Positions 5,950 to 63,500 of a stretch of DNA of 64,000 bases are shown piece by piece. The notes under the pieces are model-generated. The model saw only the letters and a program-made list of their open reading frames with translations, was not told where the DNA came from and made no database searches. The translations under genes and the position numbers were made by a program. Each line of letters starts with the position of its first letter. Position 1 is the first letter of the stretch. Source of the DNA: a virus; IMG/VR virus record IMGVR_UViG_3300021197_001489, positions 1 through 64,000 of that record. The stretch is one strand, 5' to 3'.

Positions 5950-5978
5950 TTGACAGCCTCACAAAAAAATAGTATAAT
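5950..5978 (+). promoter_or_regulatory. Sigma70-type promoter for dnaJ (nearly leaderless)
   Basis: TTGACA at 5950-5955, 17-base spacer, TATAAT at 5973-5978. The ATG of dnaJ starts 6 bases after the -10 box, so the transcript should begin at or next to the start codon. Confidence 0.75.
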
Positions 5979-6817: not shown

Positions 6818-9118
6818 ATGCAACAGAATCCTGAAATTGAACATATCCTAGGACAAGCGCAACGCTTGGCAAAAACCAAAAAGCATGCTTATGTAACGCT
6901 GGAGCATTTGACACTTGCATTGGTTAGACATACTCCGTTTTGGAATTGCCTTGAAAAGTTTGGAGCCAGCCCAGTTGCTATTGACGAAGAGCTAGAACTT
7001 TACCTTGATGCGCAAATGGGATTGATTGATCATAAAGATCGCAGCGAACCAAAGAAAACCAATGCAATAGAAAGAGTGTTTAATCGAGCATTAACACAGG
7101 TGATGTTTGGCGGGCGGCGCAGCATGGAAACTGTTGATATCTGGTTAGCCATCATAGCAGAAAACAACAGTCATGCACAGTACTTTATGCTAAAGCATGG
7201 CGTTACCAAGCAAGAGTTTGTGCCGTTTTGGCAAGAGAATTATGCTCGTCGAAATAAGTCACCTGACATGGTTGCAGATCAAGCAGACGAGATCCTGGAA
7301 GAGCATTGTACAAATATCACACAACTTGCAGTAGATGACAAACTTGAGCCTGTGATTGGGCGCGATGCTGAACTAGAAGAAATTGTCACTGTGTTAGCCA
7401 AACGTTTTAAAAGCAATGCGCTATTGGTTGGCGATCCTGGCGTTGGCAAAACTGCTATTGCCGAAGGTCTTGCCACATTGATCAAAGACAACCATGTACC
7501 TACGTTCTTGCAAAACTTTGAAGTGTGGGGATTGGAAATTGGCAGTTTGCTAGCAGGCTCAAAATATCGCGGCGAGTTTGAAGAAAAACTTAAAGACGTT
7601 ATTGCTGCACTGGAAACAAAGAAAAACTGCATACTGTTTATTGACGAAGCGCACACCATGAAAGGCGCAGGCGCAGGAGGTGGCGGCGGCTTAGATTTTG
7701 CCAACATGCTCAAACCAGCAATTACCAAAAACAATATCAAAGTAGTAGCAAGCACAACTTGGGAAGAGTTTTACGAAAGTTTCGAACAGGATCGTGCGCT
7801 AATGAGACGTTTTTATAGAATCAGCATTGACGAACCTGATCAAGCAACCACAGTTAAAATATTGGAAGGGCTAAAGCCACGGCTTGAAAAGTTTCACAAT
7901 GTGAAAGTTGACAGTCCTGCTATTGTTAAAGCAGTTGACCTCGCCACACGTTACATGGCTGACAAAAAAAATCCTGATAAGAGCATTGACTTAATTGATG
8001 CTGCCTGTGCTGTTGAGCGTGTAAAAGATCAAGAAGGTTTAGTGGTCACTGAAGATCTCATTGATGTGCAAGTATCTCGTATTGCAAATATTCCAGAAAC
8101 CAAAGTCAAAAGCGATGCTAGCGATAAAGTGCTTGAACTTGACAGCAATATTAAACAACGTCTGTTTGGTCAAGATCATGTTGTTGACGAAGTGCTAGAA
8201 AGACTCTACGTGAACTATGCCGGCATCAGTACCACTGGACGGCCAATGGGTGCGTTTCTGTTCTTAGGTCCAACTGGTACAGGTAAAACTGAATTCGCAA
8301 AATTGCTAGCAGAAAACCTGGACATGGAAATGCTGCGTTACGACATGAGTGAGTATCAAGATCGCCACACGGTGAGCAGCCTACTTGGTGCACCCCCGGG
8401 CTTTGTGGGATACAACGACAGCAATCTTGGCGGCGGCAAACTGATCAGTGATGTTAGCAAACATCCATACAGTGTGCTACTGTTTGATGAAATTGAAAAG
8501 GCACACCCTGACGTAAGCAATATTTTCCTACAAATGATGGATGAAGGAAAGATTGCTGGTGCAAATGGAAAAGTTGTTGATGTTAAAAACTGTATTATTA
8601 TTATGACATCAAACTTGGGTGCTAGAGATAATGAAAACAACAACATTGGCTTTGGACAAGACTTAACAAAAACAGGATCCGAGGACAAAGCAGTTAAAGA
8701 CTTCTTTAAACCTGAGCTTCGTAATCGACTGGATCTTACTGTTAAATTTAAAACACTTGAGACACTGGCCATTAAGAAAATTGTTGCCAAGTTCACAGGC
8801 GAGTTACGCAAAAGTCTCAAAAGTAAAAACATCAATCTTATTGTTACTGAGGCATTGGTTGATCGTTTAGTTGAAGTGGGATATGATCCTAAAATGGGAG
8901 CAAGACCATTGGGACGCAAGATTGATGAGTTAATCAAAGTTCCGCTGTCAAAGAAAATACTGTTTGAAAAACTAAGTAATTGTCACGTCACTGCTGACTG
9001 GGTGCGGATTAAAGCTAAGAAATATGCTGTAGGTCTTACCAGCAAGCCTAAAACAACAGTGAGTGGCGGCGAAGTAAATCAGGATGGTATTGTAATTGTT
9101 AACGAATCAGAAAATTAA
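6818..9118 (+). CDS. clpA: ClpA-type AAA+ unfoldase
   Basis: 766 residues, close to ClpA (758). An N-terminal Clp repeat domain (about 1-145) precedes two AAA+ modules with Walker A GDPGVGKT (about 206) and GPTGTGKT (about 485), Walker B FIDEAHT and LFDEIEKAHP, and an NRLD arginine finger. No long middle coiled coil of the ClpB type is seen. An IGF tripeptide near residue 609 sits where ClpA carries its ClpP-docking loop (IGL). It should therefore unfold substrates for a peptidase, and a clpP gene is encoded at 39183. AAAGGAA precedes the ATG. Confidence 0.9.
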   Translation: MQQNPEIEHILGQAQRLAKTKKHAYVTLEHLTLALVRHTPFWNCLEKFGASPVAIDEELELYLDAQMGLIDHKDRSEPKKTNAIERVFNRALTQVMFGGRRSMETVDIWLAIIAENNSHAQYFMLKHGVTKQEFVPFWQENYARRNKSPDMVADQADEILEEHCTNITQLAVDDKLEPVIGRDAELEEIVTVLAKRFKSNALLVGDPGVGKTAIAEGLATLIKDNHVPTFLQNFEVWGLEIGSLLAGSKYRGEFEEKLKDVIAALETKKNCILFIDEAHTMKGAGAGGGGGLDFANMLKPAITKNNIKVVASTTWEEFYESFEQDRALMRRFYRISIDEPDQATTVKILEGLKPRLEKFHNVKVDSPAIVKAVDLATRYMADKKNPDKSIDLIDAACAVERVKDQEGLVVTEDLIDVQVSRIANIPETKVKSDASDKVLELDSNIKQRLFGQDHVVDEVLERLYVNYAGISTTGRPMGAFLFLGPTGTGKTEFAKLLAENLDMEMLRYDMSEYQDRHTVSSLLGAPPGFVGYNDSNLGGGKLISDVSKHPYSVLLFDEIEKAHPDVSNIFLQMMDEGKIAGANGKVVDVKNCIIIMTSNLGARDNENNNIGFGQDLTKTGSEDKAVKDFFKPELRNRLDLTVKFKTLETLAIKKIVAKFTGELRKSLKSKNINLIVTEALVDRLVEVGYDPKMGARPLGRKIDELIKVPLSKKILFEKLSNCHVTADWVRIKAKKYAVGLTSKPKTTVSGGEVNQDGIVIVNESEN

Positions 9119-9761
9119 AAAAGAAACTCGCAGTAGCCTGTATTTTAACGAATACAAACACTGCTTAAAGTTTTACTTGCCCGATGTGTTTACATTACGC
9201 TATCGTTCGCATGTGAAGATTGACGAAATATTAGCATACAATGCTAAACGAAACTTCAACTGGGGAGGTAGTTGGCAACGTAATACAAATTCACACGGTA
9301 CCAGTGAGGATTTACACGAACTTTTGTATTTCATTGAAGATATGGTTGACAGTTGCAAGTTAACAGTTCAAAGACATCACGGATATCTATACACCAATAA
9401 TTGGGATGTAATTGAAACAGTTAGTAAACTTGAGTATATTATGGCCATTCAAGGCAAGTCAGTTGAGCTTGCTGAAGCTGGCACAATGAAGTTAAAGAGT
9501 CCTAATCACGTCTACCGTACCTATTTTAAAACACAACGTATACAGCAAGAAGAAAAATCACGCATGGCTCAGTTTATAAATTCACAAACTGAAGTTCGCC
9601 CAGGCCCTGGATTTAAAGACTTCTTAACTAACTGGACCAACTATTGTTATGTGCAACAAAATCACTTTGTAGATCACAATGATATGGGTGTCATAACCAT
9701 GCTACAACTGGTGTGTCCTATCAAAATTAAGAAAACTCTAGAGTTAATATGCGATAAATAA
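9096..9761 (+). CDS. Conserved phage protein, unknown function
   Basis: Up to 221 residues; the only plausible early start is a TTG at 9096 inside the end of clpA (an ATT is an alternative), so the start is uncertain. The recognisable body begins about residue 14 (SLYFNEYKHCLKFYLPD). The protein is aromatic and His-rich, without signal or membrane segments. It ends in a lysine-rich stretch whose stop overlaps a late promoter box. No domain recognised. Confidence 0.6.
   Translation: MLTNQKIKKETRSSLYFNEYKHCLKFYLPDVFTLRYRSHVKIDEILAYNAKRNFNWGGSWQRNTNSHGTSEDLHELLYFIEDMVDSCKLTVQRHHGYLYTNNWDVIETVSKLEYIMAIQGKSVELAEAGTMKLKSPNHVYRTYFKTQRIQQEEKSRMAQFINSQTEVRPGPGFKDFLTNWTNYCYVQQNHFVDHNDMGVITMLQLVCPIKIKKTLELICDK
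9755..9760 (+). promoter_or_regulatory. T4-type late promoter box, 5 bases before the ATG
   Basis: GATAAATAA overlaps the upstream stop codon and ends 5 bases before the ATG at 9766. It marks the start of the long late region from 9.8 to 22 kb. Confidence 0.5.
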
Positions 9762-9765
9762 CAGT

Positions 9766-9945
9766 ATGGCAAAGATAAATTCAACATCAATAGCAATTAC
9801 AGTTAGTGAACTAGCAAAGGACGATAGCCCTGCACGTGAACTTCTCAGTGATGATATTATTGCACAACTAGAAGCAGTAATTACACAACTAGCAAGCGAA
9901 AGTGCCCCTGGCGGCGTGCTTGTAGAAGTACTAAAAGCAGAGTAA
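9766..9945 (+). CDS. Small acidic helical protein
   Basis: 59 residues from MAKINSTSIAI to VLKAE. The centre is helical and acidic (SDDIIAQLEAVITQL), with a Ser/Pro/Gly-containing turn after it. A TAAATA box ends 5 bases before the ATG and the next gene begins 1 base after the stop, so it is expressed with late genes. Probably a small structural or assembly protein; not recognised. Confidence 0.6.
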   Translation: MAKINSTSIAITVSELAKDDSPARELLSDDIIAQLEAVITQLASESAPGGVLVEVLKAE

Positions 9946-9946
9946 C

Positions 9947-10345
9947 ATGAAGTCTAGCAGTCTTGTACTAATTCCGGTTACTGTCTATAGCGGCACCACA
10001 ACTATTACTGGTGGTCGGCAAAAAGGCGTGGGTTACTACCAAGGACAAGGCAACGGACAAAACATCAGATTTATTGCAAACGACTTTCCTGGAATAGTAA
10101 CCATACAAGCAAGTTTAGATACAGATCCAAAAACAGCTGATAGTTATCCAGCAGAATATCCTACTGGACTTATTGAAGCTGACTGGTTTGATGCCTATAC
10201 ATTCCCCGGAGACAGTGCAGTAGATGGATCAACTGCTATTACAACAGACTACAGTATATACTTGCCTGGTAAGTTTACCTGGATCCGCGCAGTTGTAAGC
10301 CAATTTACCGACGGCGAAATTGGACCAATTACACTTAGTTACTAG
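9947..10345 (+). CDS. Beta-rich probable virion protein
   Basis: 132 residues, rich in T, S, G, Y and V, with no charged coiled coil or membrane segment. Alternating hydrophobic stretches (GIVTIQASL, FTWIRAVVSQFTD) suggest a beta sandwich. Late-region position between two TAAATA-driven genes supports a virion component. I cannot assign a specific structural role. Confidence 0.6.
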   Translation: MKSSSLVLIPVTVYSGTTTITGGRQKGVGYYQGQGNGQNIRFIANDFPGIVTIQASLDTDPKTADSYPAEYPTGLIEADWFDAYTFPGDSAVDGSTAITTDYSIYLPGKFTWIRAVVSQFTDGEIGPITLSY

Positions 10346-10352
10346 AAACAGA

Positions 10353-10358
10353 TAAATA
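10353..10358 (+). promoter_or_regulatory. T4-type late promoter box, 5 bases before the ATG
   Basis: GATAAATATC ends 5 bases before the ATG at 10364, the same spacing as at 1900 and 9755. No ribosome site lies in between. Confidence 0.5.
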
Positions 10359-10363
10359 TCATT

Positions 10364-11665
10364 ATGTTAAAAAAGTTAGTCATCATACCAGGCGGGTTTC
10401 ACCCATTCCATGCAGGACATAAAGCATTATATGATGCTGCGGTAAGCCAGTTTCCAAGAGCAGACGTTTACATTGCTGCCACTGATGACCAAAACGCAAG
10501 ACCATTTCCGTTTAAACTGAAGCAGCAACTGGCACAGATTGCTGGCATCCCCAAGCATAGATTTATACAGGTTGGAAATCCATTCCAAGCCAAAGAAATT
10601 ACTCAACATTATGATCCAGATAGCACACAACTTATTTTTGTAAGATCAGATAAAGATTCAGGAGTGGCTCCACTGCCTGGCAGTGTAAAGAAAGACGGCA
10701 GCGCCGGATACTTACAGCCCCTGAATCGACGCAATCCAGAGCCAATGACAAAACACGGCTTTATGACATACTTGCCAACAATATCGTTTGGTCCAGGTAT
10801 GAGCAGCGCAACAGAGATTCGCGCCAAGTGGCCTACAATGAGCGACGACAGCAAAGCTGATCTTGTTAGCAGTTTGTATCCTGCAGCAAACGACAGTGTA
10901 GCATCCAAAGCAGTGGAAATTTTCAACACTGTGCTAGGTGAAGAAAAAGAAATGATCACTATGCCGCTGGGTATGTCAATAGAAGAGCCAAAGCAAGAAG
11001 CAAAGATTATCAAAACTGATGATTCAGTTAGCATACTACCAAGTGGCGGTATGGGCAGTTACGACGAAGCCACTCTCAAAAGCAACCTTGGCAGCAAACT
11101 ACGCACACTAGCGGATCTACTTGACAGCGGCGACTACGATAATCTTGAATACCACATCTATCAAAGCGGTGCAATGCAAGCAATGATTGAAGCACTTGGC
11201 CAGTACAAGCGTTTTAAAGATAAAAAAGGCAATCGTCCAATCAAGAAAAACGTTGAGATTGATATAAGCAACGAATCAGGTTTTTCACAAGAGTTACCAA
11301 CTATTGACCAAGAAATGAATGCTTATTTCAAAGACAAAAAAGATATGGGCGAGTCAGAAGATTACTTGCCAGAAGACGAGCTGATTGTTGAATATGTATT
11401 CCAAAGTCGTCCACTGAGAGTACTTGACAATATTGCAGGGCGCAAAGATCAAACACCATTTCCAATCAAGTTTGATGACGGTTCGCAAGTTATGGTATCT
11501 CCGGCAATGGCCAAGAAGTTTATGTCAATCTACCTAAGCAAAGATGTTGCTTTTCAAAAACAGATTGATCAAAAAATAAGCCAAAAGTCAGTGTTTGTTG
11601 ATGTGTTCAATAACTTGGTTAAAGGTCTACGCAGTACTGGCGTAACAGTTGGCGACCGCAGTTAA
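10364..11665 (+). CDS. Nucleotidylyltransferase-fold protein with C-terminal extension
   Basis: 433 residues. The N-terminal 180 residues have the features of the HxGH nucleotidylyltransferase superfamily (NMN, pantetheine-phosphate and related adenylyltransferases): PGGFHPFHAGH at about 8-18 and GMSSATEIR near 145, equivalent to the ISSTxxR nucleotide-binding motif. The remaining ~250 residues are of unknown type, with an acidic middle and a conserved-looking FPIKFDDGSQVMVSP stretch near the end. Late promoter and location argue for a virion-associated form of the enzyme. It could also make a dinucleotide such as NAD; the substrate cannot be read from the sequence. Confidence 0.7.
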   Translation: MLKKLVIIPGGFHPFHAGHKALYDAAVSQFPRADVYIAATDDQNARPFPFKLKQQLAQIAGIPKHRFIQVGNPFQAKEITQHYDPDSTQLIFVRSDKDSGVAPLPGSVKKDGSAGYLQPLNRRNPEPMTKHGFMTYLPTISFGPGMSSATEIRAKWPTMSDDSKADLVSSLYPAANDSVASKAVEIFNTVLGEEKEMITMPLGMSIEEPKQEAKIIKTDDSVSILPSGGMGSYDEATLKSNLGSKLRTLADLLDSGDYDNLEYHIYQSGAMQAMIEALGQYKRFKDKKGNRPIKKNVEIDISNESGFSQELPTIDQEMNAYFKDKKDMGESEDYLPEDELIVEYVFQSRPLRVLDNIAGRKDQTPFPIKFDDGSQVMVSPAMAKKFMSIYLSKDVAFQKQIDQKISQKSVFVDVFNNLVKGLRSTGVTVGDRS

Positions 11666-35496: not shown

Positions 35497-36192
35497 ATGA
35501 CAATCAAAGAAAAAATTAAACAAAGACTACAAGACGCCAACGTTAGATACTGGGCCAACGACAACATTGCTGATTACCTTGAAGAAGGTGAAAAGCAACA
35601 GTTACTTGAAGAGGCAGTTCCTGCTTTTGAAAACATGTTACAACATCTGCTAATTGATACTGAGACAGACCCTAACAGTCAAGATACTGCAAGGCGTATG
35701 GCTAAGATGTATATCAATGAAATTATGAGCGGACGTTACGAGAAAATGCCTAATCCAAGTGCATTTCCTAACTACATTGAAGGTGGTTATGAAGGCATGT
35801 TGGTAGTGAGAAGCGAACTTACAAGTTTATGTTCGCACCATCACCAAACAGTAAAAGGTGTGGCATACATTGGTATCATTGCTGGTCCTAAACTATTGGG
35901 ACTTAGCAAATATACAAGAATTGCACAGTGGTGTGCTAGACGCGGGACACTACAAGAAGAACTAAATGTAATGATTGCTGATGCAATACAAAGAGAAACT
36001 GGCAGTGACAATATTGGTGTATATGTACAAGCAACACATGGTTGTTGTGAGAACCGTGGCATTATGGCAACCAGTAGTTTGACTCAGACTACAGTTTTAC
36101 GTGGTGCGTTTAAAAAAGATGCTGATGTTAGAAAAGAATTTATTGACAATGTAAAATTGCAACAAGACAATAGTAGGTATACTTGTAGTTAA
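35497..36192 (+). CDS. folE: GTP cyclohydrolase I
   Basis: 231 residues. DTARRMAKMYINE, LCSHHHQTVKGVAYIGI, GLSKYTRI, ARRGTLQEELN and HGCCENRG are the FolE signatures; Cys and His of LCSHHH and the Cys of HGCC bind zinc. It makes dihydroneopterin triphosphate from GTP, the first step to 7-deazaguanine and folate. GGAG before the ATG and its own promoter. With QueD, QueE and the DpdA-like gene it points to DNA modification. Confidence 0.93.
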   Translation: MTIKEKIKQRLQDANVRYWANDNIADYLEEGEKQQLLEEAVPAFENMLQHLLIDTETDPNSQDTARRMAKMYINEIMSGRYEKMPNPSAFPNYIEGGYEGMLVVRSELTSLCSHHHQTVKGVAYIGIIAGPKLLGLSKYTRIAQWCARRGTLQEELNVMIADAIQRETGSDNIGVYVQATHGCCENRGIMATSSLTQTTVLRGAFKKDADVRKEFIDNVKLQQDNSRYTCS

Positions 36193-36249: not shown

Positions 36250-37320
36250 ATGAAACTATTTAAATTCCTGGCAGTAGCCCTGTCAGTGTTATTCTTCAGT
36301 GTTTCAGCAAATGCTGGAGATAAACTAAAGGTCGGATTTGTATATGTTGGGCCTATAGGTGACCATGGATGGACTTATCGTCACGACATTGGTCGTCAAC
36401 AAGTAGAAGAAGCATATGGAGACAAAGTTGAAACAGTGTTTGTTGAAAGTGTGCCAGAAGGTCCTGATGCTGAACGTGTAATGCGTTCAATGGCAAAAGG
36501 TGGAGCAGACATTATCTTTGCAACCAGTTTTGGCTATATGCCATCAATGCTTAAAGTTGCCAAGGAGTTTCCAGATGTAGCATTTGAACATGCAACTGGT
36601 TACAAACGTGCAGACAATATGGCAACATATGGCTTACGTCTATATCAAGCAAGACATGTACAAGGTATTATTGCAGGTATGATGACAAAGACAAACAAGA
36701 TTTGTTATGTTGCTGCTTTCCCAATTCCAGAAGTTATTCGTGAGATTAACACATATTACATGGGTGCAAAGAAGATGAACCCTGACGTAGAGATCATGAT
36801 TACTTGGGCCAACACCTGGTATGATCCAGGCAAAGAGTCACAGGCTGCTAAAGTTATGATGGCTGAAGGTTGCGACATGGTTGCACAGCACACTGATTCA
36901 CCTGCTCCATTGCAGGCTGCACAATTAGAAGGTAAATTAGGCTTTGGTCAAGCAAGTGATCAAATTAAATTTGCTCCTAAGGCACAATTGACTGCAACTA
37001 TTGACAACTGGGGTCCTTACTATGTAAAGCGAGTTGGCGAAGTAATGAACGGCACTTGGGCAACTGGTGACTACTTTGGTCATATGAATGACGGTTCCGT
37101 TCAAATGGCACCGTTTACTAACATGCCAGCAGATGTTGCTGCTAAAGCAAACGAAATCAAGAATGCTATCGAAGCAGGCAAGTATTTTGCATTTACTGGT
37201 CCACTCAAGGACAACAAAGGCAAAGTACAACTTAAAGCGGGCGAAATTGCAGACGACGGACATCTTAATAGTATGATGTATTATGTAGAAGGCATTAACG
37301 CACAAGTGCCTGGTAACTAA
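36250..37320 (+). CDS. BMP-family substrate-binding lipoprotein-like periplasmic protein
   Basis: 356 residues with a signal peptide (MKLFKFLAVALSVLFFSVSANA). The mature part follows the BMP/PnrA family of ABC-transporter binding proteins: VGFVYVGPIGDHGWTYRHD, GADIIFATSFGYM, and ANTWYDPGKESQAA. These bind nucleosides in many bacteria. There is no lipobox, so it is a soluble periplasmic form. No permease genes are nearby, so it would have to feed the host transporter. AAAGGA precedes the ATG, and a weak promoter (TTGTTC/TATAGA) lies at 36196-36223. Ligand inferred. Confidence 0.85.
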   Translation: MKLFKFLAVALSVLFFSVSANAGDKLKVGFVYVGPIGDHGWTYRHDIGRQQVEEAYGDKVETVFVESVPEGPDAERVMRSMAKGGADIIFATSFGYMPSMLKVAKEFPDVAFEHATGYKRADNMATYGLRLYQARHVQGIIAGMMTKTNKICYVAAFPIPEVIREINTYYMGAKKMNPDVEIMITWANTWYDPGKESQAAKVMMAEGCDMVAQHTDSPAPLQAAQLEGKLGFGQASDQIKFAPKAQLTATIDNWGPYYVKRVGEVMNGTWATGDYFGHMNDGSVQMAPFTNMPADVAAKANEIKNAIEAGKYFAFTGPLKDNKGKVQLKAGEIADDGHLNSMMYYVEGINAQVPGN

Positions 37321-38706: not shown

Positions 38707-39183
38707 ATGCCATATTACAGCACAAAAACATACGGACACAACATTGGACTAAGTGCAGTGTTTCGCCAACCACACGCAGATCATTCGCATTGCAAGTTCT
38801 TGCATGGATACAGTTTACAATTTAAATTTGTATTTGGTTGCAGAGATCTTGACAACAAAAACTGGGCAGTTGACTTTGGTGGCTTAAAGCCGCTTAAACA
38901 ATGGCTCGAAGATAGTTTTGATCATAAAGTTGTATTAGATGAAAATGATCCTCACTTGGATGACTTTCGAGTACTAGAAGAAAAAGGCCTAGCACAACTT
39001 AACATTGTTGCAGGTGTTGGCGCAGAAAAGTTTGCAGAACATGCATGGCGCTTTGCTGACAAACTTATCCGTGAAGCAACTGATGACCGTTGTTGGTGCG
39101 ACAGTGCAGAGTGTGCAGAACATGGTGCTAACAGTGCCATCTATACACCATTTATAATCCGCAAAGAAAGGTTTACTGAATAA
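38707..39183 (+). CDS. queD: 6-carboxytetrahydropterin synthase
   Basis: 158 residues. [13 protein letters not shown] supplies a zinc His pair, [23 protein letters not shown] is the family core, and an additional HADHSHC His/Cys pair lies upstream. QueD converts dihydroneopterin triphosphate to 6-carboxytetrahydropterin, the second step to preQ0. It ends overlapping the clpP ATG (TAATG). AGGAGAATAG precedes the start. Confidence 0.88.
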
Positions 39184-40677: not shown

Positions 40678-41265
40678 ATGAAAAAAGTCTATGTAACATG
40701 GCACGATGTACAGCGGCAAACACAAGAAATACTTAGGCAGTTGCAAAAAGATTGTTGGAAGCCGGATTACATTGTAGGAGTTACACGTGGCGGATTAACA
40801 CTTAGCAATCTGCTTAGTCAATACTTGGACATCACAATGTACACACTTGATGTAAGACTGCGTGATGGTAAACATGTCCCATGTGAAAGCAATACCAAAC
40901 TTGCAGAAATAGCATTTGGAATAAATGATGGTAGATCAAAAGGCGCACGTTGGGATGTTGGGCAACGTAAAAAAGTGCTGATAGTAGACGACATCAATGA
41001 TTCCGGGCAAACTATTAACTGGATAAAAGCAGACTGGGAACACACTATTAGTAGTAAAATACACGAAGATGTTGCCTATGTGTGGGATACTGTTTGGAAC
41101 GACAGTACACGTTTTGCAGTACTCTATGATAATGTAGCAAGTGATGCAAACTTAAAAGTATCTTATGCTGCGGAAGAAATAAACAAAGTTGAAGATCCAA
41201 GCTGGGTTGTTTTCCCTTGGGAAGAATGGTGGAGCAGATGGGATCCTAATGAGGAGATAATGTAA
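40678..41265 (+). CDS. Phosphoribosyltransferase
   Basis: 195 residues. DYIVGVTRGGLTLSNLLSQYL followed by KVLIVDDINDSGQT is the PRPP-binding signature of type I phosphoribosyltransferases, most like the xanthine/hypoxanthine group. It would attach ribose-5-phosphate to a purine-type base. Another PRTase (apt-like) is encoded at 45879. AAGGACG precedes the ATG; TAATG overlap with queE. Confidence 0.8.
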   Translation: MKKVYVTWHDVQRQTQEILRQLQKDCWKPDYIVGVTRGGLTLSNLLSQYLDITMYTLDVRLRDGKHVPCESNTKLAEIAFGINDGRSKGARWDVGQRKKVLIVDDINDSGQTINWIKADWEHTISSKIHEDVAYVWDTVWNDSTRFAVLYDNVASDANLKVSYAAEEINKVEDPSWVVFPWEEWWSRWDPNEEIM

Positions 41266-55495: not shown

Positions 55496-56830
55496 ATGTT
55501 TGAATTACTTTCTGCTTTTGTTGTAGGATTAGGTTTAGGTGTTGTGTCTGGAATTGTTCCAGGTCTCAATGTGTTTGTAAGTATCTTACTGGTATTTCCA
55601 CTGTTGATAACTTGGGAACCAACCAGCATTATGTTTATGTATATCACATTGGCCAGTGTGCATCAGTACTTTGGCAGTGTAAGTGCCACTGTGTTTGCTA
55701 TACCTGGCACCAGCACCAGTTTACCTGCACTACACGAAGGGCATGGTATGTTTCAAAGTGGCAGAGGCAGCGAAGCAATTATGACAGCCGCAATTGGCAG
55801 TTTCTTTGCTAGTTTTTTTGCTATTGTTCTAATACATTTCATGTTGCCTTATCTCAGCATTTTCTATCAAATTTTTAACACACACATACAGGCATTGCTG
55901 TTAACAGTTGCCGCAGTAACAATCATAGTGTTCGCTGACAACAAAATTTGGATTAGTCTATTGCTTTGGATAGTAGGAAATACACTGGCCATGGTAGGCC
56001 TACACGAATACTATGGCGGCATTACATTTATGACTTTTGGAATTCCGGCACTGTACACAGGTATTGATCTATTACCTGTGATGATTTCACTGTATGTGGT
56101 TCCTGTGTTTTTGAGAGCAAGTAAGTCAGGCGGCCGTATTGAATTTAAAGGTGTAAGCATGGGAGGCTATGTTGATGCCGCGCGCCGCATGTACAAACAA
56201 ATGAAAATGACACTTTTGCGTAGCAGTATTATTGGAGCATTAGTTGGCTTCATACCTGGCATCAGTTGGGGGTTGAGTACAATGCTTGCTTACAACTCCG
56301 AACTGGGTATACGCAAACGTAAAAAACTATACAATACACAGGGAGATGCAAACTGTTTGGTGGCTGCAGAAAGCAGTAACAACGCAGGTGTGTACACCAG
56401 TATGGTGCCTATGCTGTTTGCAGGTATACCTATCACTGCAAGTACTGCACTCATATACAACATATTCATGTTTAGAGGCATCAACCCAACGCTGCCATTC
56501 TTTGAAAGTTTATACGAAATAACCTTAGTTGGGTTTGGCATAAGCAGTGTTATAGGATTGCTTATAGCAGGCAAATATGTTAATTTTCTCAAGTTTTTAA
56601 GTGGACTGGACATACGCAAATTTTACACTGTGATGTTTTTGCTGCTGGTTGTGATTTGCTACTTTGTGGCAGAACAATACTATGCAGGATTTGACAACAT
56701 GATGATGTTGGTTTGTCTGTTACCTTTTGGGTACCTACTTAGAAATTACAACACAATGCCATTGATATATGGTTTTGTGTTGCAAGATATTTTTATAGAA
56801 AGTGTTTATAGACTAACATTTTTCTATTAA
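55496..56830 (+). CDS. tctA: TctA-family tripartite tricarboxylate transporter permease
   Basis: 444 residues with about ten to twelve membrane segments. VVSGIVPGLNVFVSILLVFP, FAIPGTSTSLPALHEGHGM, and GALVGFIPGISWGLST are typical TctA motifs; they form the two repeats around the substrate path. It would import carboxylates (citrate-like or others) across the host inner membrane with a TctC binding protein, encoded next. No TctB small subunit is seen. GGA precedes the ATG. Confidence 0.85.
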   Translation: MFELLSAFVVGLGLGVVSGIVPGLNVFVSILLVFPLLITWEPTSIMFMYITLASVHQYFGSVSATVFAIPGTSTSLPALHEGHGMFQSGRGSEAIMTAAIGSFFASFFAIVLIHFMLPYLSIFYQIFNTHIQALLLTVAAVTIIVFADNKIWISLLLWIVGNTLAMVGLHEYYGGITFMTFGIPALYTGIDLLPVMISLYVVPVFLRASKSGGRIEFKGVSMGGYVDAARRMYKQMKMTLLRSSIIGALVGFIPGISWGLSTMLAYNSELGIRKRKKLYNTQGDANCLVAAESSNNAGVYTSMVPMLFAGIPITASTALIYNIFMFRGINPTLPFFESLYEITLVGFGISSVIGLLIAGKYVNFLKFLSGLDIRKFYTVMFLLLVVICYFVAEQYYAGFDNMMMLVCLLPFGYLLRNYNTMPLIYGFVLQDIFIESVYRLTFFY

Positions 56831-56857
56831 AAAAACCTTTTTTTATTAAAAAGGATG

Positions 56858-56886
56858 TTGACAACAAGCTGTTTTGTTGTTATTAT
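56858..56886 (+). promoter_or_regulatory. Sigma70-type promoter for the TctC-like gene
   Basis: TTGACA at 56858-56863, 17-base spacer, TATTAT at 56881-56886. An A/T-rich inverted repeat (CCTTTTT/AAAAAGG, 56836-56853) precedes it and might end the tctA transcript. AAAGGAG precedes the ATG at 56913. Confidence 0.75.
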
Positions 56887-56912
56887 ACTGAACAAACTTT
56901 AAAGGAGTTATA

Positions 56913-57812
56913 ATGTTTGATATTAGAAAAACTGTTTCAGTGGCAGTATTAGCACTGACAATGATGATTGGCGCAAACGGTACATCAGTTGCCGGCACAG
57001 ACATCACCACCCTTAAAGGTCCTGGTGATGTTAATGTAATGCTGATGTATCGCGCAGGCGGTTCATATGGACGTATGAGTCAGCAGGTGATTGCACCAAA
57101 TCTTGGTGATGATTTTAAAGAAATCAAAAACATTCGTGGTTGTGCAAAGATGGCAGATTTTGTCAAAAACACAGACGAAAAAATGTTTGGTTTGTGGGAT
57201 TGGTTCTCAACCAATGAGCCACTAGCAGACGGCAGCAAGAATCCTTGCTTCCTTGAGCAAGAAAACATTGTTAGTATTAGCCATGCATTTCCATATCGTG
57301 CATGTTTCGTAGCTGGTGCCAATGGCCGCAGTCTTGATGACTTCGTAAATGGCAAAGGTATTAAGGTTGGCATCCTGGCCAATGGTGTATACAAAGCACA
57401 GGCAACTCAGGTAATACATAGCATCAACCCTGATGCAAAAATCATTCCTTATAGCAGTAGTAAAAAATACATTCCTGGATTAAAGTCTGGCGAAGTAGAC
57501 TATCTTTACTCAGCACAAATGCGTGATTGGATGACATGTGTTGCTTCAACAGATGCAAAAGAAACACAGTTTACACCCTTTGGTACACTGTCAGACAACT
57601 TTCTTGCAGACAAAAACACCTATCCAGCATTTGCAGCATTTAATATGGACATGGACGAAGCATTTGCATTCGCGCAAAAAATTCAACAAAGTCCAGAAAT
57701 GGTCAAGTTCCTTGCTGGTGTCGGACACGTTATGCCGACACAGGTGACAATGCCACGTCGTGAGCAGCTGGCCTTTATGAATGAATGGTACGCAACCATT
57801 CAGGAAAAATAA
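56913..57812 (+). CDS. TctC/Bug-like periplasmic solute-binding protein
   Basis: 299 residues with a signal peptide (VAVLALTMMIGANGTSVAG). LMYRAGGSYGRMSQQVIAPNL resembles the PxGGxxDxxAR opening of TctC-type binding proteins, and a later VGILANGVYKAQATQVI and SGEVDYLYSAQMRDW fit the two-lobed fold. Encoded right after TctA, it should present a carboxylate to it. The sequence is divergent, so ligand and even partner are inferences. Confidence 0.65.
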   Translation: MFDIRKTVSVAVLALTMMIGANGTSVAGTDITTLKGPGDVNVMLMYRAGGSYGRMSQQVIAPNLGDDFKEIKNIRGCAKMADFVKNTDEKMFGLWDWFSTNEPLADGSKNPCFLEQENIVSISHAFPYRACFVAGANGRSLDDFVNGKGIKVGILANGVYKAQATQVIHSINPDAKIIPYSSSKKYIPGLKSGEVDYLYSAQMRDWMTCVASTDAKETQFTPFGTLSDNFLADKNTYPAFAAFNMDMDEAFAFAQKIQQSPEMVKFLAGVGHVMPTQVTMPRREQLAFMNEWYATIQEK

Positions 57813-57842: not shown

Positions 57843-59021
57843 ATGCTGTATTACCAAGTTGGAGATAAAACGTATTACACCAATGTAGATGCACTTGCTG
57901 CATTCACCAAAAATCCTACTCATGATTTGCAACTGAAACTTGAGTTTAATTTTACCAATCAACCACATCTTTGGCTAACCGAACCTAAATTAAGTGTGCA
58001 TGCTTACATGGATGAGCATGCAAAAATATTATATGATAGATATAGAAAAGTTCATTTAAGATACAGCGGCGGCACCGACAGTCACACTCTGTTACAAAGT
58101 TTTGTCCGCACCAAAGGCGTAGTTGACCTTGAACACATAACCACAGCAGAAATGAGTGACTTCAGCAGAGACTTGTATATACACAACAAAGCAGATTTTG
58201 CGGAGGTTGCAAAGCTAGATGCGGTAAACAGTTTCAGCGTATTTGATCATCATGGACTTACACTTAAAGAATTTAATCGTGCTCTTAGCAATTACAAAGG
58301 ACATCTAAACAACGCCTTGGGCAACCAAAGTTTATATTGGGACATGTGCTCAGACCGAACAACACTCACAGGCATCATGGAAAATGATGTTGTTGTTACT
58401 GGTAAAGAAAAACCCAGGTTGGTTATAGAAAATGGTTGGTGGTGTTGGACTGTCCTTGATGCCAATTTAAGCGACAGTCAGGCTGACTTTGACAGAGGAT
58501 TGCAGGTTTGGTTTTATATGACAGATGATGTCCCAGAGTTGCAAATCAAGTTGGCCTGGGTTAAATTAAAATATTTAGAACAAATAGCCAGAGAACAAAG
58601 TACAACAATAACAGAGAGCTGGCTAGCTAATATTCAACAAACCACAAGCATGTACTATCAAAGAATTAATCATGCCATGGGCTACAGTGCATTGAACCCT
58701 GTGTTAAATTCAGTCGTGGGTAAAATCAGTGACCCAAGCCAAACACGCATAAAAGAATACAGACAGTGGAATGACAACAACAACATCACTGATATGTTCA
58801 ATGATTACTGTCAAGATATTGTAAGTAATGTGCGCAGTGATTTCTATACAAGTGCAGGAAACTCATTTCAAACAGAGCGTCATGAACTAAGTGCAGCGGA
58901 AGCATATCAAACAGAGGTAGAAGACCACCAAACTGATTCTAAGCAAATCTATAACATCAGTGGCATATGGCATAAAAAAATACCTATCACGCCAGTAAGC
59001 CCAGACCTGCTGCCAATTTAA
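57843..59021 (+). CDS. PP-loop ATPase, asparagine synthetase-like
   Basis: 392 residues. LRYSGGTDSHTLLQSF near residue 73 is the N-type ATP pyrophosphatase loop (SGGxDS), as in asparagine synthetase and QueC. There is no N-terminal glutaminase Cys2 and no QueC-type zinc cysteines. A C-terminal helical part is rich in Q, N and Y. The enzyme should adenylate an acceptor and add nitrogen or sulfur; the substrate is unknown. Confidence 0.65.
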   Translation: MLYYQVGDKTYYTNVDALAAFTKNPTHDLQLKLEFNFTNQPHLWLTEPKLSVHAYMDEHAKILYDRYRKVHLRYSGGTDSHTLLQSFVRTKGVVDLEHITTAEMSDFSRDLYIHNKADFAEVAKLDAVNSFSVFDHHGLTLKEFNRALSNYKGHLNNALGNQSLYWDMCSDRTTLTGIMENDVVVTGKEKPRLVIENGWWCWTVLDANLSDSQADFDRGLQVWFYMTDDVPELQIKLAWVKLKYLEQIAREQSTTITESWLANIQQTTSMYYQRINHAMGYSALNPVLNSVVGKISDPSQTRIKEYRQWNDNNNITDMFNDYCQDIVSNVRSDFYTSAGNSFQTERHELSAAEAYQTEVEDHQTDSKQIYNISGIWHKKIPITPVSPDLLPI

Positions 59022-60272: not shown

Positions 60273-60722
60273 ATGAGTATGTTTTTAAGGTGGTGGCTAC
60301 TGTTCTGCACCAGTTGTGCGGCTATGTTTACCGCCTATAGTTTTGGGTTTGTTGATGCACTGATTGCAAAAGATGTCACGCGACTTAGTTTTGCTATACT
60401 TGCAGTGTTCTTTTTAAGTAGCATGTATGTTGGATGGATGACCTATAAACGAAGCAAAGGTGCAGTAGTGAAAGTTGGTGTAAATGTTGGATGGTTTATC
60501 ACTGAACTACTGCTTGCCTTGGGCATGATTGGAACAGTTATTGGATTTATCTTGATGCTGGGCGGAAGTTTCGAAAGTTTAAATCTTTCTGATACTGGCA
60601 GCGTAAAGACTGCACTAACTGCTATGGCAATAGGTATGAGTACTGCACTGTATACTACACTCGTAGGAATGGTGTGCAGCCAAATCCTCAAGGTGCAGCT
60701 GGTCAATGTCGAATCCAAATAA
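60273..60722 (+). CDS. MotA/TolQ/ExbB-like proton channel protein
   Basis: 149 residues with three or four membrane segments. LALGMIGTVIGFILMLGG and LTAMAIGMSTALYTTLVGM are the paired helices that form the ion path in TolQ/ExbB/MotA proteins (xGxxGTVxG and AxxxALxTTxxG motifs). It is smaller than ExbB (about 240), as the cytoplasmic loop is reduced. It overlaps its ExbD-like partner by 17 bases. Confidence 0.75.
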   Translation: MSMFLRWWLLFCTSCAAMFTAYSFGFVDALIAKDVTRLSFAILAVFFLSSMYVGWMTYKRSKGAVVKVGVNVGWFITELLLALGMIGTVIGFILMLGGSFESLNLSDTGSVKTALTAMAIGMSTALYTTLVGMVCSQILKVQLVNVESK

Positions 60723-61371
60723 TAGATTAAAATACAAAAGCAGTATAGGCTTTACTGATTTACTATTCAATCTTGTTATTGGGTTTGTATACCTTTTTGT
60801 GATTGCATTTATACTGATTAATCCTGTTGCTAAAAAAGGCGATGTAATTAAAAAAGCAGAATACTTGGTTACAATAGAATGGAATCATGAGTACAATGAT
60901 GATATTGATTTGTGGATTAAAGACCCTGCCGGCAACATTGTTAGTTTTTTACAAAAAAGCAAAGGCTTGATGCATTTAGAAAAAGATGATCTAGGTCACA
61001 GCAACGATAGCTATCACAAAGGTGCACAAAAGAAAACACTTTATCTCAACAGAGAAGTTATAACACTGAGAGGCACACTAGAAGGCGAATATCAAGTAAT
61101 GGCACATGTGTACAACAGAAAGTTTACAATGAGAGACGGCGAAGTACGTCAGGACTTGCCAGGTATAATAGAAGTCACAGTAATAAAGATTAATCCTTAT
61201 TTGGAAACTTATTTTGAAAGAGTGCCCTATATTGAAACTGGACAAACATTAAGTTTGGTAAGGTTTACAGTGGGAGAAAAACATAGATATCTTGATCACA
61301 ATAATGATCCAAGTTCTTTTATAACTAAAAAAGGAACCAGCGGTTTGGGGAGGTATAACACAATACCATAA
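60706..61371 (+). CDS. ExbD/TolR-like protein with YfaP-type periplasmic domain
   Basis: 221 residues. A single N-terminal membrane helix (GFTDLLFNLVIGFVYLFVIAF) has an Asp at its start as in ExbD/TolR/MotB, where it carries protons. Then comes a periplasmic domain with TIEWNHEYNDDIDLWIKDPAGN, resembling the DUF2135/YfaP domain (DxDLxVxDPxGN) instead of the normal ExbD fold, and a polar end. It should form a PMF-driven stator with the preceding gene. One-base overlap with the next gene (TAATG). Confidence 0.65.
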   Translation: MSNPNNRLKYKSSIGFTDLLFNLVIGFVYLFVIAFILINPVAKKGDVIKKAEYLVTIEWNHEYNDDIDLWIKDPAGNIVSFLQKSKGLMHLEKDDLGHSNDSYHKGAQKKTLYLNREVITLRGTLEGEYQVMAHVYNRKFTMRDGEVRQDLPGIIEVTVIKINPYLETYFERVPYIETGQTLSLVRFTVGEKHRYLDHNNDPSSFITKKGTSGLGRYNTIP

Positions 61372-61832
61372 TGTTTGATTTCAACCTACTTCCATTTTTT
61401 GCCAGCATGTTGGTTCTAACACTGATAGTGTTGGGTATTGGTGTGCATTTTTATCGCAATGCACTTGTGATGTTTATAGTGATTCCTGTAGCACTGTTTT
61501 GTGCATTTTCAGGATACAACACTATTACCACAATGCTAGGCTATCCTATTAAACACATTATTCCTGAAGATAGTATGTATCTCAATCATATTGAAAATGG
61601 TGACGGCTCAGAATTGTATGTATGGGTATTAGAACCAGAACGCATGATGCCAAAAAACTACAGTATTCCTGCAACAGACGAAAATAAGAAACAAATGCAA
61701 CGTGCCAAAGGTCGCACAGACAAAGGTATAAACCAACAAATAGGCAAATACAAAAGCGAGCGCAGTGGCGAGCGCAACGAAGGCGACTATATGGTTTATG
61801 ACTTTAGCATTGATCCGCAAGGGTTGAAATAA
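61371..61832 (+). CDS. Third membrane protein of the ExbB/ExbD-like operon
   Basis: 153 residues. Two membrane segments (about residues 6-26 and 31-52), then a soluble, charged region with ELYVWVLEPERMMPKNYSIP and a basic Lys/Gln/Arg-rich tail. It is translated in one-base overlap with the ExbD-like gene, so the three products likely form a complex. Function unknown. Confidence 0.6.
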   Translation: MFDFNLLPFFASMLVLTLIVLGIGVHFYRNALVMFIVIPVALFCAFSGYNTITTMLGYPIKHIIPEDSMYLNHIENGDGSELYVWVLEPERMMPKNYSIPATDENKKQMQRAKGRTDKGINQQIGKYKSERSGERNEGDYMVYDFSIDPQGLK

Positions 61833-61921: not shown

Positions 61922-62410
61922 ATGCCAACATTTGTATACATGACTGCATGCGATGGATGTGGACATTGCGTCGACATTTGTCCAAGTGACATCATGCACA
62001 TTGATCCAGTAACAAGACGAGCAGTAAACATAGAACCAAACTTTTGCTGGGAGTGCTATTCATGCGTAAAAGCATGTCCACAAAATGCAATTGACGACAG
62101 AGGCTACAGTGACTTTGCGCCTATGAATCACAAGGTCAGAGTATTACGAGAACCAGAAAAAGGCGTTATCAGTTGGCGACTCAAATTCAGAGACGGCAGA
62201 GAAAAACACTTTGAATCACCTATTCGCACAACACCTTGGGGCAGTATACAATGCGCCAGTGAGTACGACGTGCCAGATGCAACACTAAATGACTCACAGC
62301 AACTAGCACATGAACCAGAATACTTACTGGCAGATGGCGGGTTGCGCATGATTAGTAAGAATAAATTTGTTAAATACGAGTACACAGGAGACACACATGC
62401 CACCACGTAA
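61922..62410 (+). CDS. aprB: Adenylylsulfate reductase beta subunit (AprB)-like ferredoxin
   Basis: 162 residues. Two 4Fe-4S sites: Cys10, 13, 16 and 20 (CDGCGHCVDIC) and Cys42, 45, 48 and 52 (CWECYSCVKAC). The rest follows AprB, not plain ferredoxin: PQNAIDDRGYSDFAPM, VISWRLKFRDG and IRTTPWGSIQ. AprB carries electrons to AprA, which interconverts APS and sulfite. No aprA is in the window. The sequence looks SAR11-like. Own promoter; overlaps the oxygenase gene by 14 bases. Confidence 0.88.
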   Translation: MPTFVYMTACDGCGHCVDICPSDIMHIDPVTRRAVNIEPNFCWECYSCVKACPQNAIDDRGYSDFAPMNHKVRVLREPEKGVISWRLKFRDGREKHFESPIRTTPWGSIQCASEYDVPDATLNDSQQLAHEPEYLLADGGLRMISKNKFVKYEYTGDTHATT

Positions 62411-63500
62411 TCATAATAACTGGACAGCAACACCCAAGGTTGAATACATCAGCAGCGAATGCTACAATAACTTTGAAGTGTTTGAACAAGAGCAAGAGCA
62501 CATCTTTTCAAAAGTGTGGGTACCAATGTGCCACAAGTCAGAGCTTTCGGAAGCAGGTAGGTTTAGAACAACCAAGATTGCTGGTCAAAATGTTATAGCA
62601 ATTAACAATGGCGACACTATTAAAACATACTTAAATCCTGGAAAGTTCAGTACTCCAGCTGGATCAATGACACGAGTTCAATTCTTAATGGATGACTATA
62701 CTCCATTGCATACTGAAGTCAAACATGGTGGAATGGTATGGACAACGTTGGATTCTAATCCTACACAAAGCGTAGATGAGTGGACAGCAGGTGCATTTGA
62801 TTGTATTGCTGATGCCATTGATACCGAAGAGATGGAAGTATTCCATTACCATAAAGCTGTTATAGATACCAATTATAAACTGTGGCATGATACCAACAGT
62901 GAATTCTATCACGACTTCATGCATTATTTTAATAGAGTGAGTGGCTTCAATGATGAATATTTCGCTAGAAAAAATATCCCTTTTGATAATGGTCACGTTA
63001 ATGTGTCTAGCTTTACTGTTAACTATGAAGAGTATGACGGATTTGAAGATCGCGGGGACTTATCTTTTCCCAATTTGCCGCCCAACCAGTGGTACATGGT
63101 TGACCTCTTCCCAGGATTCAATTTTAACCTCCGCGGGAGTGCATATCGTTCAGACTCGGTGACTCCACTAGGTCCTAACAAAGTTCTTATCGAATTTAGA
63201 GGTTATGGATTACTCAATGATACTCCTGAAGAAAGACAAACACGCATTAAGCACCACAATAGTATATGGGGACCTTTCGGCAGAAACTTGCACGAAGACC
63301 TTATTGGCGTGGCTGGTCAAGGCACTACAATGCGTGAAGGTACAGAATCAAGAAACATACTGCACGGCAGACATGAAAATTCTACAATACATGATGAAGT
63401 TGGAATGAGACATTATTATGAAGCATGGGGTAACATGTTGGGTGTAAGTCCAATGAATCCACTACAAGGACAACTACAAGATGTTAGTAAGGCTGCGTAA
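62397..63500 (+). CDS. Rieske-type oxygenase alpha-subunit relative lacking the Rieske site
   Basis: 367 residues from the ATG at 62397 (AGGAG upstream). The catalytic domain is recognisable: NYKLWHDTNSEFYHDFMH gives the two His, and NLHEDLIGVAGQ the Asp of the mononuclear iron site. The N-terminal domain has the RFRTTKIAGQNVIAI entry strand but no CxH...CxxH pairs, so it cannot hold a 2Fe-2S cluster. It may take electrons from the AprB-like ferredoxin encoded in front. Substrate unknown. Confidence 0.7.
   Translation: MPPRNHNNWTATPKVEYISSECYNNFEVFEQEQEHIFSKVWVPMCHKSELSEAGRFRTTKIAGQNVIAINNGDTIKTYLNPGKFSTPAGSMTRVQFLMDDYTPLHTEVKHGGMVWTTLDSNPTQSVDEWTAGAFDCIADAIDTEEMEVFHYHKAVIDTNYKLWHDTNSEFYHDFMHYFNRVSGFNDEYFARKNIPFDNGHVNVSSFTVNYEEYDGFEDRGDLSFPNLPPNQWYMVDLFPGFNFNLRGSAYRSDSVTPLGPNKVLIEFRGYGLLNDTPEERQTRIKHHNSIWGPFGRNLHEDLIGVAGQGTTMREGTESRNILHGRHENSTIHDEVGMRHYYEAWGNMLGVSPMNPLQGQLQDVSKAA

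Follow-up and report, generated by a model that had tools for sequence, protein, structure and literature searches.

The marine giant phage described here carries two gene pairs, each joining a TctA-type permease to a predicted secreted binding protein, and we propose, with a probability of roughly 0.6, that these constitute two TctB-free, two-component importers of the carboxylate type, serving as auxiliary metabolic genes. One pair, tctA1 and SBP1, lies in the window (the stretch of 64,000 nucleotides analysed, which is part of the 316,012-base virus record IMGVR_UViG_3300021197_001489); the other, tctA2 and SBP2, lies at 286.6–289.1 kb of the same record. Nutrient-uptake genes known from phages, pstS among them, for the most part contribute a single component of a transporter that belongs to the host. 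In this phage a permease gene is accompanied by a binding-protein gene at two places, and one of the pairs is strongly conserved across many marine viral contigs. In an infected cell, the secreted protein would bind a small solute of the carboxylate type in the periplasm and pass it on to the phage TctA; import would be by ion symport, and the solute would then provide carbon, energy or a precursor while the infection proceeds. We infer that the importers work, and likewise which way they transport, what class of substrate they take and that the phage benefits.

The record contains portal and tail protein genes and a family-B DNA polymerase gene whose product is closest to those of Sinorhizobium phage Phosso (51%) and Agrobacterium phage Atu_ph07 (46%) and next closest to those of other large phages, including CBB, GAP32 and 121Q. 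Its gene content marks it as a tailed jumbo phage, and a host among the alphaproteobacteria, suggested by the polymerase, is only a guess. Two TGA codons that seemed to lie inside a related portal gene proved to be tandem stops at the gene end. Other genes of the record include a GTP cyclohydrolase I (FolE-type) gene at 35497 and a 6-pyruvoyl-tetrahydropterin-synthase-type (QueD-type) gene at 38707, both recognized by Pfam, as well as many glycan-type genes. To the eye, the open reading frames at 41265 and 29711 resemble QueE and DpdA; neither has a Pfam match, so that 7-deazaguanine DNA modification is a suggestion only. Towards the end of the window, an aprB-type gene (TIGR02060, above cut-off) and an overlapping Rieske-oxygenase-type gene (61922–63500) form a pair that recurs in IMG/VR contigs, with AprB at 81–98%; it is preceded by a MotA/TolQ/ExbB-type membrane protein gene and two neighbours (60273–61832), whose order before aprB is kept in two related viral contigs.

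The first-pass annotation had set the window's Tct genes beside two further uptake genes and had suggested that the phage reprograms uptake in infected cells. One of the two, a BMP/PnrA-type binding protein with a signal peptide (36250..37320, plus strand), is borne out by Pfam (PF02608, E 2.5e-50) and by its nearest solved structure, the Brucella-type BMP 3s99 (E 2.9e-119); a homologue is present in a related viral contig, and any link to the Tct pair would be conjecture. The other, a putative phosphate permease-like reading frame at 29–985, has PiT-like motifs by eye and no Pfam match at E ≤ 1, so that the assignment lacks profile support. The transport genes described below may reprogram uptake in infected cells.

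The permease of the first pair, tctA1 (55496..56830, plus strand; 444 aa), is a full-length TctA, as originally annotated, its match to PF01970 scoring 234.5 bits (E 2.4e-69; cut-off 28.9) and covering positions 2–416 of 423. TctA proteins carry a duplicated motif, G-Hy3-G-Hy3-G-Hy2-P-G, in TM1 and TM7 (PMC5812351), and TctA1 has a first copy at G11-x3-G15-x3-G19-x2-P22-G23 and a second at G247-x3-G251-x2-P254-G255. A crude hydropathy scan finds 10 hydrophobic helices in TctA1 and 7 in TctA2, bacterial TctA having about 9–12. A PHROG search with tctA1 gave no match. The SBP1 reading frame begins 82 bases past the tctA1 stop codon, and 30 bases past SBP1 begins the third gene of the module (57843..59021, plus strand; 392 aa), which encodes a PP-loop (SGGxDS) protein that is asparagine-synthase-like by the motif RYSGGTDS in its translation and for which no significant Pfam family was found.

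Between the two transport genes lies a promoter-like site, TTGACA-N17-TATTAT (56858..56886, plus strand), with 11 of 12 consensus matches and TG before the second hexamer, in a region where the total of consensus promoter matches is at chance level. If real, it could allow the binding protein to be made in excess of the permease, as such systems usually require. Sites of the form TTGACA-N16-18-TAnnnT recur at 5950, 24420, 38202, 44179, 49596, 53236, 56858 and 59031, closely 5′ of genes or a tRNA and nearly all on the plus strand. Late-promoter-like sites (TATAAATA) were no more frequent than chance and were set aside.

SBP1 (56913..57812, plus strand; 299 aa) had been called TctC-like with a signal peptide, a call that was staked on the outcome of a profile search. 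Its N-terminus (about residues 1–27, 56913..56993, plus strand) does resemble a Sec-type signal when the translation is read by eye, with a basic start, a hydrophobic core and small residues ahead of the likely cleavage site. The plain profile search went against the call: PF03401 (TctC) has no match at E ≤ 10 anywhere in the 316-kb record, SBP1 matches nothing in Pfam, PHROG or PDB sequences, and in NCBIfam it touches only a binding-protein-like family, at E 0.018. More sensitive comparisons restore the call at moderate confidence. A profile of four SBP1 homologues scored Prob 35 (E 4e-4) against a TctC set and Prob 81 (E 1.2e-5, 258 columns) against TctC and SBP2 together, with reversed controls at Prob 0.1 and two other binding-protein families below 1. 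An AlphaFold model from a joint SBP1/SBP2 alignment, of medium confidence (pLDDT 57, pTM 0.51), finds its best PDB matches in TctC of Polaromonas (4x9t), 2dvz (BugE), a terephthalate-binding protein and Bug27, and its best viral matches in 'PBP2_Bug_TTT' proteins of uncultured phages (BFVD); the four homologues alone gave a model that was not usable (pLDDT 36). As the joint alignment renders the fold partly circular, we call SBP1 TctC-like at moderate confidence. The domain 1 loop motif of TctC, P-F-x-A-G-G-x-x-D (PMC5812351), appears in SBP1 as M-Y-R-A-G-G-S-Y-G, with the AGG retained, and in the homologue on viral contig L087 as GGAYD. A further contig match of SBP1 (L016) was a chance similarity to a response regulator. 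Taken from the profile–profile comparison and the fold, SBP1 is quite probably a distant TctC-type binding protein.

The second pair is more readily recognized. PF01970 matches the record twice, in the window and at 287868–289124 on the minus strand, where TctA2 (L014:7700-9139, minus strand; 479 aa) is again full length (306.8 bits) and overlaps by 8 bases the start of SBP2 (L014:6649-7707, minus strand; 352 aa), a TctC-type protein with a signal peptide. SBP2 matches an annotated TTT substrate-binding protein at E 2e-15 (tblastn); the binding proteins that it matches adjoin tctA in Sagittula and Pseudosulfitobacter, and one of them is itself matched by PF03401 at E 4.6e-9. A phage-only SBP2 profile aligned with these TctC proteins at Prob 99.4 (E 6.8e-22), the two profiles sharing no rows, so that the comparison is non-circular. 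The relation of SBP2 to TctC is firm.

TTT systems (tripartite tricarboxylate transporters) consist of TctA, TctB and TctC, the function of TctB being unknown (PMC5812351). The absence of TctB, noted at first for the window's pair, holds throughout the 316-kb record: PF07331 (TctB) has no match at E ≤ 10, and a crude scan for small multi-helix reading frames offered no convincing candidate, although a highly diverged TctB could be missed since the family is poorly conserved. The proposed importers would operate in the manner of a TTT system, but because TctB was sought and not found, we do not file the phage pairs as complete TTT systems (TC 2.A.80). TctAB fusions are rare, and archaeal TctA proteins without partners exist (PMC5812351). 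The nearest sampled bacterial relatives of TctA2 are plasmid-encoded TctA–TctB fusions of 647–676 aa with a C-terminal TctB domain, to which it is about 32–36% identical; TctA2 has one further hydrophobic segment at its C-terminus and then ends, making it a phage form without the TctB part. In a tree of 27 TctA proteins, in which the bacterial sequences come almost wholly from plasmids, TctA2 groups with the fusions at 98/100 and the two phage families form separate clades, each at 100/100. Independent acquisition is favoured without being proven, since the AU test does not reject one common origin of all phage TctA (p 0.21).

Characterized TTT systems include TctB as a standard part, and TRAP transporters cannot do without its counterpart, DctQ (PMC5812351); pairs that lack TctB may therefore be unable to transport. 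The phage proteins might instead enter hybrid complexes that raise the TTT capacity of the host, phage TctA borrowing a host TctB or phage binding proteins feeding host permeases. Such borrowing would explain a record without TctB, where bacterial operons have TctB beside TctA or fused to it, and many bacterial TctC (Bug) proteins do lack neighbouring permease genes (PMC5812351). Yet each phage binding protein comes with its own permease gene, a superfluous one if host permeases were enough, and the distance of phage TctA from sampled bacterial TctA makes pairing with a host TctB less likely; on balance we consider hybrid complexes rather unlikely, and prefer self-contained two-component importers.

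The first pair also has a neighbour that could bear on its use. The tctA1 pair is rarer among viral contigs than the TctA2 pair. Contig L087 keeps the order of the window, with 71% identity for TctA1, 56% for SBP1 and 46% for the PP-loop protein, while in L085/L088 (contig G011, where TctA2 is found too) and in L089 the TctA1 type is more distantly related and is accompanied by a secreted partner of its own. Synonymous sites are saturated between the window and L087, so dN/dS is not measurable for TctA1 and SBP1 and recurrence alone is shown. Searches of IMG/VR with TctA1, SBP1 or the PP-loop protein as single sequences returned no relatives; three contigs were reached only when an alignment including the second TctA1 type was used, and two more alignment-based scans brought no additions. 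Since the method depends on short exact patterns, failure to find a relative is weak evidence of absence. In each of the four contigs a PP-loop gene adjoins the tctA1-type pair or lies close to it, those in L085/L088 and L089 being distant homologues. On L089, two tandem asparagine-synthase-like genes, the first matching PF00733 at E 3.7e-8, occupy 8236–10813 between the pair and the PP-loop gene.

This neighbourhood, including the two intervening genes of L089, invites the explanation that at least the first pair serves phage biosynthesis rather than general nutrition, importing an acid that the PP-loop enzyme processes, for example in nucleotide or surface-glycan modification; the FolE-, QueD- and glycan-type genes of the phage would suit it. 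Against that, the much commoner second pair has no PP-loop neighbour, no reaction is assigned to the PP-loop proteins, and similarity is weak for two of the three homologues; we regard precursor import as improbable.

Evidence that such genes matter to the viruses comes from the second pair. Relatives of TctA2 occur at 35 IMG/VR loci (78–100% identity), with SBP2 next to TctA2 wherever the contig extends far enough and the stop/start overlap present in 22 of the 22 loci examined. Against the phage of the window, dN/dS is 0.03–0.08 for TctA2 and 0.06–0.12 for SBP2, at unsaturated synonymous sites, values that mark strong purifying selection on both genes. Since one pair is strongly selected across many related viruses, it probably feeds infected cells, and recurrence together with purifying selection, measured for the second pair, fits a working uptake function. 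These are host-like transport genes in a viral genome, with selection seen for TctA2/SBP2, and we therefore class them as predicted auxiliary metabolic genes. TctA is common in bacteria, and TctA matches in a phage collection were either short or from unverified, bacterial-looking records resembling host carry-over, but chance carry-over, contamination or a chimaera with no phage function is very improbable here and largely refuted by conservation, given the same pairs in contigs from several metagenomes, virus-only clades separate from sampled bacterial TctA, the low dN/dS and kept overlap, and a portal gene on one contig with TctA2 (G009, 124,715 bases).

Among characterized systems, TctCBA of Salmonella and BctCBA of Bordetella share with the phage pairs a TctA-family permease with the TctA motif adjoining a secreted TctC-type protein; the phage pairs differ in having no TctB, in their strong divergence, in being phage-borne and in occurring as two copies of different families. 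The fused TctA–TctB and TctC operons of Rhodobacterales and Thalassospira plasmids contain the nearest sampled relatives of TctA2 and a TctC related to SBP2, but their permeases have the C-terminal TctB domain that TctA2 lacks, and gene order and regulators differ. Cyanophage PstS is likewise a periplasmic binding protein that a phage encodes for taking up a nutrient, and one that experiments support (PMC12713726), although it serves an ABC phosphate transporter, whereas here both permease and binding protein, of another family, are phage-borne.

That whole-transporter genes are rare in phages, as first stated, looks right, with the qualification that earlier papers mention tctA on viral contigs (PMC4164917, PMC8115048) and that BFVD holds 'PBP2_Bug_TTT' phage proteins. 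These earlier cases are likewise marine and viral: SUP05 viral contigs were reported to carry tctA (PMC4164917), and an OMZ myovirus scaffold has 'tricarboxylate transport' genes next to norB/nirK (PMC8115048). In the passages concerned they are a domain hit or a passing mention, with neither a paired binding protein nor a second copy nor any analysis of selection. A search of the literature, outside subscription papers and preprints, turned up no account of a paired, TctB-free cassette in a jumbo phage.

Beyond the two importers as such, we entertain a bolder and more doubtful history, in which a marine jumbo phage lineage evolved TctB-free importers of its own, at least one of them by dropping the TctB half of a TctAB fusion, and in which the two now differ in substrate, one of them working together with a PP-loop enzyme that acts on what is taken up. 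If so, viruses would be maintaining a minimal form of binding-protein-dependent secondary transporter. The natural absence of TctB offers a direct test of whether that subunit is necessary and, if the pairs are functional, giant marine phages would control the uptake of dissolved organic acids in the bacteria they infect.
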